Below the pieces are notes generated by a model that worked only from the letters and a program-made list of their open reading frames with translations, did not search any database and was not told the DNA's origin. Below, piece after piece: positions 30,658-34,522 of a stretch of 39,096 nt of DNA (within the stretch, counting starts at the first letter, position 1; every line of letters starts with the position of its first letter). The position numbers were made by a program, and so were the translations under genes. The DNA lies in the NCBI GenBank assembly GCA_019752115.1, contig JAIEMN010000063.1:1-39096 (forward strand). The letters are read 5' to 3'. This stretch comes from Gemmatimonadaceae bacterium. GTDB taxonomy: Bacteria; Gemmatimonadota; Gemmatimonadetes; Gemmatimonadales; Gemmatimonadaceae.

Positions 30658-31938
30658 ATGCGTTCGCCTCGCCACTTTCTGCACCCGCTGCTGCGTGCCG
30701 CGGTCCTGCTCGTCGTCGCGGTCATGCCAGCGATGGCGCAGCAGCTGCTCGTGCCCATGGACGACGGCCAGCGCAATCACCTGAAGGCCTACGGGGTCAC
30801 CTATCAGGCGCTCAAGGCCGGTCAGAAGGCGGAGTGGTTGCTCAACTATCGGGGCGGCGCGTTTCTGCTGCCCGATGTCCCCGATGTCCGCAAGCGTGCC
30901 GCCCTCGAAGGCGTGAGCGTCGAACCGGTCACCGATGGCGATGTGGCGGCGATCCGTCGCGAGATCGCCGGCGGCAACATGGACGCGGTGGTACTCGAGC
31001 GGTCGCCGCGCATTGCGATCTATCGCCCCGTCGATCAGCCACCCTGGGACGACGCCGTGACGCTGGCCCTGACCTACGCCGGCATCGACTTCACGAGCAT
31101 CTGGGACGACAACGTGATGAACGGGGAACTCAGCAAGTATGACTGGGTGCACCTCCATCACGAAGACTTCACCGGTCAGTACAACAAGCTCTATCTCGCG
31201 TATCGCGATGCGCCGTGGTTCGTGGCGCAGCGTGAGCGGGACATGGGCATGGCCAAGCGCTTCGGCAAGAACGATGTGCCGGCACTCAAGAAGGCGGTGG
31301 CGGACAACATCCGCGGCTTCGTGGATCGCGGCGGCTTCCTCTTCGCCATGTGCGGCGCCACCGAATCGCTCGATCTCGGCATCGCGGCGCTCAATGTCGA
31401 TATCGCCGGGCCCTACTCCGACGGGACGCCGGTGCAGGGCGATGCCGATGCGAAGCTCGACTGGACGCGTGCGCTCGCCTTCAGCGGGGCCCACATCGAA
31501 CCGAGCCCGTACATCAACGCGCTGTCGGACATCGACGGCCACCAGGTGAACGTGCCGTCGCGCCGGCAGCCGCTCGGCGCGTTCACGCTCTTTGGCTTCT
31601 CGGCCAAGCTCGACCCGGTCGCGACCATGCTGGTCCAGGATCATCGCACGGTAATCCCCGATTTCTTTGGCGTGACCACGAGCTTCAACAAGGCCGTGAT
31701 CAAGCCGACTGTGACCATTCTGGCGCAGGAAGACGGCGCCCCGTGGGCCAAGTATCTGCACGGCGACTACGGCAAGGGGTCGTGGACGTTCCTCGGTGGC
31801 CATGATCCCGAGGACCCGCAGCACGCCATCGGCAGCCCGCCGACGGACTTGTCGCTGCATCCGAATTCGCCGGGCTACCGGCTGATTCTCAACAACGTGC
31901 TGTTCCCGGCCGCCAAGAAGAAGCCGCGCAAGACCTGA
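30658..31938 (+). CDS. Secreted GATase-like-fold protein, 'asparagine synthetase B' look-alike family
   Basis: This 426-residue protein starts 8 bp after the TPR gene's stop and has a signal peptide (1-27, ending PAMAQ). The opening (LLVPMDDGQRNHLKAYGVTY, WLLNYRGGAFLLPD) matches a family commonly named 'asparagine synthetase B' in Bacteroidota databases, but it has no AsnB domains: no N-terminal Cys for glutamine hydrolysis and no SGGxDS ATP motif, so that name is misleading. The second half has FVDRGGFLFAMCGATESLD, like the RGGFL element of DUF4159, and HGDYGKGSWTFLGGHDPEDPQH, typical of a GATase-1-like fold. It is the last gene of the envelope module. Function unknown. Confidence 0.8.
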   Translation: MRSPRHFLHPLLRAAVLLVVAVMPAMAQQLLVPMDDGQRNHLKAYGVTYQALKAGQKAEWLLNYRGGAFLLPDVPDVRKRAALEGVSVEPVTDGDVAAIRREIAGGNMDAVVLERSPRIAIYRPVDQPPWDDAVTLALTYAGIDFTSIWDDNVMNGELSKYDWVHLHHEDFTGQYNKLYLAYRDAPWFVAQRERDMGMAKRFGKNDVPALKKAVADNIRGFVDRGGFLFAMCGATESLDLGIAALNVDIAGPYSDGTPVQGDADAKLDWTRALAFSGAHIEPSPYINALSDIDGHQVNVPSRRQPLGAFTLFGFSAKLDPVATMLVQDHRTVIPDFFGVTTSFNKAVIKPTVTILAQEDGAPWAKYLHGDYGKGSWTFLGGHDPEDPQHAIGSPPTDLSLHPNSPGYRLILNNVLFPAAKKKPRKT

Positions 31939-31963
31939 GCGGCGCGGTGAGCACGCAGTGGCC

Positions 31964-34522
31964 ATGAAGGCAAAACGGGCGCGCTCGAGCACGAGCGAAC
32001 CGATCGGCGAGGCGCGGCTGTCCACCAAGGCGGCCGCGTCGATTCGCAGCACCATTCGCCTGCACGGCGGCAACGAAGTCTGCTTCGTGTGCGGCGTGGA
32101 TGAAGACGGCACGATCATCAGCGCGCGCAAGGTTGCGGCCGGTGATGTGCAGAGTGTGCTCGCGCTGCCGGGGTGCGCCGAGCGCGGCGAACTGCTGCTG
32201 CACAACCATCCGAGCGGGGAGCTCACACCCAGCGACGCCGACATGGAAGTGGCGTATCGCTTCCACGGCAACGGCGTGGGCTTTGGCATCGTGGACAACG
32301 ATGCGACGCGGGTCTACATCGTGGCCGAGGTGCCCAAGGGCAAGGTCCTCACGCCGGTTGATCCCGATGTGGTGGATGTGACGCTCGGGCCGTACGGCCT
32401 CGTGGCGCAGGCCATGCGGCAGTTGCACGGGGCGCGCGATTACGAAGATCGCCCGGCGCAGCGCGCGATGGCGGCGGCGGTGACCGACACCTTCAACGAT
32501 GGCGGCGTGGCGCTGCTCGAAGCCGGCACCGGCGTCGGCAAGTCGCTCGGCTATCTCGTGCCCGCGCTCCGCTGGGCGGCCGCAAACGGCGAGCGCACGA
32601 TCGTGAGTACCGCGACGATCACGCTGCAGGAGCAGCTGGTCACCAAGGACCTCCCGTTCCTGCAGAAGGCGCTGAGTGATCAGGAGGTGCGGTTCGCGCT
32701 GCTCAAGGGGTGGCGGAACTATCTGTGCCTCTATCGCCTGGAGCAGGCCACCGGGGCTGGCGCGGCGCTCTTCGAGAATGACGCGAGCGCCGAAGTGGAG
32801 CGGCTGCGCACATGGGCGGAGAAGACCACCGACGGCTCGCTCGCCGATTTGCCCGATCCCCCACGCCCCGATGTGTGGGACGAAGTCTCCGCCGAGCCCG
32901 ATCTCTGCGGGCGGCTCAAGTGCGAGTTCTACGCCAAGTGCTTCCTCTTCAAGGCGCGGCGCGAAGCGGCGGTGGCCGATGTGGTGGTGGTGAACCATCA
33001 CCTGCTGCTGAGTGACGTCGCCGTGCGGCGTCAGGTGCAGAACTGGGATGATGCGGCGGTGCTCCCGGCATACAAGCGGCTGGTGATCGACGAAGGGCAT
33101 CATCTCGAGGAAGCGGCCGGGTCGCACCTTGGGAGTTCGATCACGCGACGTGCCTTGGCGCGGCTCTTCAATCGGCTGGAGCGGCGCGGCAAGGGGCTGT
33201 TGCCGGCGCTCGCGGCGAAGCTGGGCGGCATGAACGACCTGCTCGCGGTGGCGAGTCTCGATCTCGTGCGCGAGCGGTTGTTCTCGAGCACGCTCACCGC
33301 GCGCGATCGGACGCAGCTGCTCTTTGAGCTGCTGGGTGCGGTGCTCGAGATGCACAGCGGCCCCGTCATGCGTCTCACCGAGGACTTCCAGCAGCACCAG
33401 CTCTGGATGAACGGCATCGAGCGCGCGTTGGGGGAGCTGCTCACGGAGATCGACGCGCTCGCGCAGGGGCTGCAGGTGGTGCAGCAGCGCCTGGAGAGCG
33501 ACGAGAAGCGTGCCGAGGAGATGGCGCCGTTCCTTGGGGAAGTGCGCGCGGTGATCCGGCGGCTGCAGGGAGCGGGCGACTCGCTCAACAAGGGGCTCCG
33601 CCCACCGGAGAAGGGCCCCGATGTGGTGCGCTGGATGGAGTTCCAGGGCAAGCCCACACCGAACGAGCGCAACATCGCGGTGCACTGCGTACCGCTCGAC
33701 CTGGCGCCGGTCCTGCGCGAGGATCTGTTCGGGCGCGTCGAGACCACCGTGGTGACGAGTGCGACGCTGGCGACCCACGGGGGCTTCGACTTCTTGCAGC
33801 AGCGCCTCGGGCTCGATGCACGCGAAGCGCCGACGCGCACGGCGGTGTTTCCGAGTCCGTTCGACTATCCGCGACAGGCGTTACTCGTGGTGCCGACGGA
33901 TTTGCCGGCGCCCAACGAGAACGCCGCTGAGCACTTCGCGCAGGTGTGCCGCCATCTGCGCGATCTCATGACGGCCAGCGACGGCGGGCTCTTTGCGCTG
34001 TTCACGAGCCATCGCGACGTGCGCGAGATGGCGGCGTGGCTACGCGGCCCGGGGCAGGGCGCGAGCTGGCCCCTGCTGGTGCACGGCGAGGAGCCGCGCG
34101 ATGTGTTGCTGCAGCGCTTCCGCGACGCCGGCCGCGCGGTACTGCTCGGCACGGCGACGTTCTGGGAAGGCGTGGATGTGCCGGGCGACGCGCTGCGCGG
34201 GCTGCTGATTGCGAAGCTGCCATTCCGCGTCCCCACCGAGCCCATTGTCGCCGCGCAGTGCGAGGCGATCGAAGCCCGCGGCGGGAATGCGTTCGGCGAG
34301 TTCATGCTCCCGCACGCGTCGCTCCGCCTCAAGCAGGGGTTCGGGCGGTTGATCCGCACCGCAACCGACCGCGGCGTGGTGGTGCTGAGTGATCCGCGCG
34401 TCATGACCAAGCGGTACGGGCGCGAGCTGCTGGACGGGCTGCCGCCGGCCAAGCGGGTGGTGGGAGCGTGGGGGGAGGTGCGGGGGGAAGTGTCAGCGTT
34501 CTATCGGGGGCGGCGTAACTGA
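31964..34522 (+). CDS. JAMM/Prok-JAB metalloprotease domain fused to a DinG-type Fe-S superfamily 2 helicase
   Basis: The protein has 852 residues. Residues 18-135 form a JAMM domain with all metal-site residues: Glu38 (NEVCF), His80 and His82 (LLLHNHPSG), Ser90 and Asp93, in the exact HxHx7SxxD spacing. Residues 160-850 form an XPD/DinG-like 5'-3' DNA helicase: Walker A EAGTGVGKS (186-194), four cluster cysteines Cys255, Cys315, Cys320 and Cys326, the DEGH box (376-379), TSATL, and QGFGRLIR near the end. DinG unwinds R-loops and damaged DNA; classical Gram-positive DinG has an exonuclease in place of JAMM. A GTG six bases upstream is another possible start. The TGA stop lies within a palindrome's AACTGATCAGT core. 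Confidence 0.92.
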   Translation: MKAKRARSSTSEPIGEARLSTKAAASIRSTIRLHGGNEVCFVCGVDEDGTIISARKVAAGDVQSVLALPGCAERGELLLHNHPSGELTPSDADMEVAYRFHGNGVGFGIVDNDATRVYIVAEVPKGKVLTPVDPDVVDVTLGPYGLVAQAMRQLHGARDYEDRPAQRAMAAAVTDTFNDGGVALLEAGTGVGKSLGYLVPALRWAAANGERTIVSTATITLQEQLVTKDLPFLQKALSDQEVRFALLKGWRNYLCLYRLEQATGAGAALFENDASAEVERLRTWAEKTTDGSLADLPDPPRPDVWDEVSAEPDLCGRLKCEFYAKCFLFKARREAAVADVVVVNHHLLLSDVAVRRQVQNWDDAAVLPAYKRLVIDEGHHLEEAAGSHLGSSITRRALARLFNRLERRGKGLLPALAAKLGGMNDLLAVASLDLVRERLFSSTLTARDRTQLLFELLGAVLEMHSGPVMRLTEDFQQHQLWMNGIERALGELLTEIDALAQGLQVVQQRLESDEKRAEEMAPFLGEVRAVIRRLQGAGDSLNKGLRPPEKGPDVVRWMEFQGKPTPNERNIAVHCVPLDLAPVLREDLFGRVETTVVTSATLATHGGFDFLQQRLGLDAREAPTRTAVFPSPFDYPRQALLVVPTDLPAPNENAAEHFAQVCRHLRDLMTASDGGLFALFTSHRDVREMAAWLRGPGQGASWPLLVHGEEPRDVLLQRFRDAGRAVLLGTATFWEGVDVPGDALRGLLIAKLPFRVPTEPIVAAQCEAIEARGGNAFGEFMLPHASLRLKQGFGRLIRTATDRGVVVLSDPRVMTKRYGRELLDGLPPAKRVVGAWGEVRGEVSAFYRGRRN

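Follow-up and report, generated by a model that had tools for sequence, protein, structure and literature searches.

A RadC-like DinG helicase of Gemmatimonadota with a conserved, separable RadC-type JAMM domain

RadC-type JAMM proteins are widespread, and to our knowledge no activity has been agreed upon for them. The JAB enzymes that have been characterized biochemically are peptidases of ubiquitin-like tails (PMC5512222). RadC has been argued to lack the groove for a ubiquitin tail and to take the place of nucleases in fusions; its contexts include fusions with DinG/RAD3 helicases, and a nucleic-acid substrate was predicted for it in preference to a ubiquitin tail (PMC5512222). The absence of the groove and the direction toward nucleic acid were argued likewise for the RadC clade elsewhere (PMC3482391). 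A subgroup of helicases termed “RadC-like DinG” was named by Cheng (2025; section 3.8, PMC11981726), who modeled a member from Desulfuromonas soudanensis with zinc, stated that there had been no research on it, and described it as structurally similar to YoaA, yet without HolC. That survey sampled one strain per order, and at least its main text names neither Gemmatimonadota nor Fusobacteria (PMC11981726). It also covers ExoDinG and pExoDinG, the N-terminal domain of which is active in the one and dead in the other (PMC11981726). In the open-licence literature, neither biochemistry of a RadC-like DinG nor an activity of a RadC-type JAMM domain on DNA or RNA was found.

The gene analyzed here lies on a contig of 39,096 nucleotides from a Gemmatimonadaceae bacterium (JAIEMN010000063.1), the whole of which is referred to as the window (Table 1). 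Its product shares with the RadC-like DinG of Cheng (2025) an N-terminal RadC-like domain containing one glutamate, two histidines and one aspartate, a DinG motor composed of MD1, MD2, Arch and FeS following that domain, a four-cysteine Fe-S motif, and a genome without HolC. The JAMM-DinG fusion is, as an architecture, already in the literature and not new; the original prediction, which knew of no characterized example, was right with respect to the bench, but the fusion itself had been described (PMC11981726, PMC5512222). In contrast to that earlier account, the protein is found here throughout a phylum, together with relatives in which the domain is absent, has been swapped, or has lost its metal site. 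ExoDinG and pExoDinG resemble it in that an Fe-S DinG motor carries an additional N-terminal module, of which both active and dead versions exist; the module is an exonuclease domain of the DEDD type in these two and a JAMM domain in the window protein.

Table 1. Positions of the RadC-like DinG gene, its predicted functional elements and the flanking genes in the window.
Feature	Position	Strand	Basis or remark
Syntenic upstream gene, 426 aa, secreted-looking	30658..31938	+	about 20 nt separate it from the helicase ORF
RadC-like DinG coding sequence	31958..34522	+	854 aa from GTG, stop included; open throughout
RadC-type JAMM domain, residues 18–127	32009..32338	+	PF04002, 2QLC profile match, model
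E40, JAMM glutamate	32075..32077	+	in 49/49 intact members; none of the four eroded ones has it
H82-N83-H84, ligands H82 and H84 (predicted)	32201..32209	+	49/49 intact members
S92..D95, JAMM serine and aspartate	32231..32242	+	49/49 intact members
Inter-domain linker, residues 134–171	32357..32470	+	alignment invariants; L142–L149 sequences
Walker A GTGVGKS, residues 190–196	32525..32545	+	alignment
Fe-S cysteine C257	32726..32728	+	invariant in 81/81 full-length sequences
Fe-S cysteines C317, C322, C328	32906..32941	+	invariant in 81/81 full-length sequences
Walker B DEGH, residues 378–381	33089..33100	+	relatives mostly DEAH
Motif VI QGFGRLIR, residues 793–800	34334..34357	+	alignment
Syntenic downstream gene, fumarylacetoacetate-hydrolase family PF01557	34651..35277	+	Pfam

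Pfam, NCBIfam and the structural models agree that a JAMM domain and a DinG-type helicase reside on one chain, as originally predicted and at the coordinates given then. The ATG at 31964 is a start equally possible as the GTG and would yield a protein of 852 residues; the exact start can only be placed approximately because many homologues align only from about residue 14–20. Glu38, His80, His82, Ser90 and Asp93 of the original prediction, which were counted from that ATG and are therefore two lower, correspond to E40, H82, H84, S92 and D95 in the GTG numbering used here. All five are present, and Walker A, the four Fe-S cysteines, DEGH and QGFGRLIR are intact as well. The 854-residue protein matched DEAD (PF00270) above the cut-off and Helicase_C_2 (PF13307) with an E value of 7e-44. 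Residues ~151–845 were covered by the YoaA/DinG models of NCBIfam with E values down to 5e-169, all of them below the equivalog cut-offs. The full-length model (pLDDT 92.1, pTM 0.92) had DinG from E. coli (6FWR) as its top structural match (E 5e-42). Judged by its sequence, the gene encodes an Fe-S superfamily-2 motor of the XPD/DinG type that is preceded by a RadC-type JAMM domain, and both are intact.

Motor, Fe-S cysteines and helicase motifs are shared with YoaA and DinG, and the protein might simply be an ordinary YoaA that carries an incidental N-terminal domain and works as YoaA-HolC does at the fork. YoaA is indeed the best NCBIfam match (E 5e-169), but the 563.8 bits obtained are below its equivalog cut-off of 680. 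The resemblance of the model to 6FWR and that of RadC-like DinG to YoaA (Cheng, 2025; PMC11981726) would also fit. However, HolC was missing from the genome (97% complete) in a search that found it in both E. coli and Caulobacter, which weakens this reading, and the JAMM domain, which YoaA and DinG do not have, is conserved across the phylum. An ordinary YoaA is thus considered very unlikely.

By sequence type, the fused domain is RadC and not Prok-JAB. RadC (PF04002) was matched over residues 29–103 of the window protein (E 3.8e-6, above the cut-off) and was found in all 49 members of the alignment, whereas Prok-JAB (PF14464) gave weak matches in 32 of the 49, the window domain not being among them. 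From the label “JAMM/Prok-JAB” that had been assigned initially, JAMM can be retained and Prok-JAB cannot. The best sequence match in the PDB was RadC 2QLC (E 4.9e-7, profile), with which (and with PF04002) the domain shares the JAMM subtype and the HNHPSG...PSxxD motif. The EXnH(x)HX7SXXD site is present in the sequence and, in the model, is placed in a JAMM fold. The domain differs from RadC proper, which this genome encodes as a protein of its own (C18, E 3.8e-43), in being divergent (28 bits, ~86 of 121 profile positions covered); against the RadC equivalog model NF000642 the window protein scored 23.6 bits, the cut-off being 180. The linker carries a conserved glycine (G147, in LGPxGPxA) ahead of the DinG entry motif YEDRPxQRxM, its invariants in the alignment being G130, E146, R148 and Q151 (subsequence numbering), and these motifs stay even in relatives without a JAMM domain (L142–L149). 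At residue 61 (32138–32140), within the VARG motif, the window protein has alanine where all 48 other intact members have arginine.

The model of residues 18–150 (pLDDT 89.7) had RadC 2QLC as its top Foldseek match (E 1.8e-5), and its JAMM part aligned to Rpn11, PfJAMM1 and AfJAMM at Z 8–9.6. Judged by Z, the fold is at least as near to peptidases (Rpn11, BubCD) as to RadC, and since the structural scores do not separate the two, the substrate is not decided by structure. The best VIA Z values, to the peptidases Rpn11, BubCD, CSN5 and PfJAMM1, together with the complete EXnHxH...SxxD site and the action of characterized JAB enzymes on ubiquitin-like tails (PMC5512222), would suit the proposal, made in the original prediction, that the domain is an isopeptidase or peptidase stripping adducts, either ubiquitin-like or other proteins, from a partner or from proteins on the DNA as the helicase advances. 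The idea gained no positive support from the analysis, the domain being RadC-type, for which the ubiquitin-tail groove is argued to be absent (PMC5512222, PMC3482391). The genome encodes one clear ThiF (E1-like) protein, beside one ThiF hit below the cut-off, and one ThiS/MoaD-like protein; a UBact query found no match, its control being likewise empty. With a RadC-type domain and no dedicated modifier system apparent from these searches, the isopeptidase reading is the weaker one, and we regard it as quite unlikely.

To what extent the gene is conserved was examined in 200 genomes of Gemmatimonadota, in 159 of which the JAMM part and in 168 of which the helicase part found a match. RadC-like DinG is a near-universal chromosomal housekeeping gene of this phylum, and its synteny is conserved: the upstream gene (mean identity 72%) adjoins the helicase in 71 of the 73 relatives whose sequence extends far enough upstream, the fumarylacetoacetate-hydrolase gene lies downstream in 64 of the 69 extending far enough in that direction, and gltX is next in many. 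The upstream 426-residue protein had no match in Pfam or NCBIfam. Neither a mobile or defence gene nor a repair gene was recognized among the neighbors examined, the context being housekeeping, and a search around the gene turned up no promoter-like site. Control by the SOS response was considered and rejected, as the single SOS-box-like match had one mismatch, is no more than expected by chance, and is located past the end of the gene. An origin from a phage or mobile element was likewise discarded: 46 viral RadC-like loci were without DinG, an annotated phage collection was unmatched, and the synteny is that of housekeeping genes. Scanning contigs with patterns derived from the window protein retrieved almost only records of Gemmatimonadota, a result that does not gauge the breadth beyond the phylum. 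Records labeled Kuenenia (L042) and Phycisphaerales (L085), the copies in which share 75% and 60% identity, respectively, with the window protein, are probably mis-binned contigs.

Together with the window protein, the family set comprised 147 distinct sequences. The whole site is covered in 132 of them, and in 128 of these, E40, H82, H84, S92 and D95 are all intact; the intact site persists down to ~43% full-length identity. Conservation of the metal residues in all fusions, as envisaged in the original prediction, holds among these 132 with four exceptions, and the erosion in most homologues that would have spoken against a functional site is not what was found. Of the remaining 19 sequences, six are partly or wholly uncovered (the open stretch misses part or all of the domain, four still showing H/H/S/D), nine are without the domain, and four have lost the metal site. 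The median dN/dS was 0.15 for the JAMM part and 0.14 for the helicase (Nei-Gojobori; 224 pairs with 78–97% helicase identity); with overlapping pairs and synonymous divergence close to saturation, these values demonstrate purifying selection rather than a precise ratio. Recurrence across Gemmatimonadota and purifying selection on both halves argue against a chance fusion, and the retention of the five JAMM residues, together with a dN/dS like that of the helicase, implies a metal site that is probably working.

With moderate confidence, the protein is interpreted as a housekeeping RadC-like DinG in which a 5′-3′ Fe-S motor is combined with a metal-dependent RadC-type accessory hydrolase acting on nucleic acid. 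As known members of its family suggest, the motor would translocate 5′ to 3′ on single-stranded DNA and would open forks, D-loops or R-loops. The JAMM domain, situated at the slot of the exonuclease domains of ExoDinG, may be the metal-dependent accessory hydrolase and could act on nucleic acid that the motor lays bare, such as a strand it has displaced or an end carrying damage. Nucleic acid rather than ubiquitin-like tails is suggested by context, that is, by the missing ubiquitin-tail groove of RadC and its nuclease slot in fusions (PMC5512222, PMC3482391), and this assignment has less support than that of translocation.

Relatives with a deviating N-terminus bear on how separable the two parts are. 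The nine sequences without the domain (L095, L142 and L144–L150) include DinG proteins of the Gemmatimonadaceae-level family f1 in the genera g3, g4 and g7 (L095 and others within L142–L149). In another, L150 (G070:C1:1157800-1161300), the place of the JAMM domain is taken by an in-frame DUF1707 (SHOCT-like) stretch (E 4.9e-9, above the cut-off). The domain is present but its metal site lost in L151, L152 and L153 (genomes G122, G110 and G132, respectively) and in L162 from Fusobacterium vincentii (NZ_CP084075.1, 1006178-1016583; a record of 2.1 Mb entered as a plasmid). None of the four retains E40, N83 or D95, and H82 and H84 are replaced in three each. The scaffold residues F43 and G147, by contrast, occur throughout the set, and V41, V59-A60-R61, G106 and G108 persist in the three members from Gemmatimonadota. 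The Fusobacterium domain aligned to JAMM with an hhalign E value of 4e-5 (probability 70%) and the full-length alignment starts from residue 20, which is moderate evidence that it is homologous to the JAMM domain.

In a fast maximum-likelihood tree built from the helicase portions (67 rows, support by SH-aLRT only, direction of change not inferred), the rows without JAMM fall apart among those bearing it, into g3 with g4 (one clade), g7, and G070, and the metal-less g69 pair and G132 stand separately. Four changes to “absent” were counted, three of which are forced by starred branches, and three to “dead”, all forced, including that of Fusobacterium, the long branch of which is unreliable. Within Gemmatimonadota, at least three losses of JAMM and at least two erosions are needed on this tree; the spread of the domain across the phylum suggests that it is ancestral there. 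The loss in g7 took place in situ, given that the upstream gene still adjoins the helicase there. Assembly errors are unlikely for g3, g4 and g7 because several genomes per genus have the same state; the states of G070 and G132 each rest on one genome. Gene fission was rejected as an explanation, as the JAMM query found no separate copy in the JAMM-less genomes, although one that had strongly diverged would escape it. Thus, the two modules are separable: on several occasions the JAMM domain was deleted, swapped or stripped of its metal site with the motor intact, and the occurrence of eroded and domain-less members in several lineages indicates that the helicase does not depend on JAMM activity.

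Such losses raise the question of whether the chemistry of the domain matters at all, or whether it serves mainly a structural, regulatory or partner-docking role, as was proposed for pExoDinG. That the metal-less g69, G132 and Fusobacterium versions keep the scaffold positions would be expected from such a role, and the full-length pTM of 0.92 suggests that the domain may be fixedly seated on the motor. Loss of the whole domain, tolerated in at least three lineages, can be reconciled with it, too. However, without selection on the site itself, E, H, H, S and D would hardly all be present in the 128 intact sequences; these do not fit a purely structural role, whereas the eroded members do. A mainly structural, regulatory or docking role is rated unlikely.

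A further, tentative possibility goes beyond the accessory hydrolase favored above: the JAMM domain might represent a kind of enzyme new for RadC-type domains. It could be a nucleic-acid hydrolase dependent on zinc or a protease that attacks DNA-bound protein independently of ubiquitin, coupled in either case to a 5′-3′ Fe-S helicase and repeatedly lost or switched off. If so, RadC-like DinG would provide the first handle on the role of RadC. Its close relatives supply natural knock-outs (domain deleted), point mutants (metal site gone) and one domain swap, and fusion to a motor of known kind together with these variants makes a practical system for finding the activity of RadC-type JAMM domains. 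The gain lies in the testability of the RadC question and not in a new class.

A survey of separate RadC proteins in the genomes of the deviating relatives yielded no RadC-family match in the three with a metal-less domain (G110, G122 and G132). Only two events stand behind these three genomes, and the absence is a lead only. In all JAMM-less genomes sampled (G016, G021, G023, G026, G105, G108 and G070), a separate RadC is kept.
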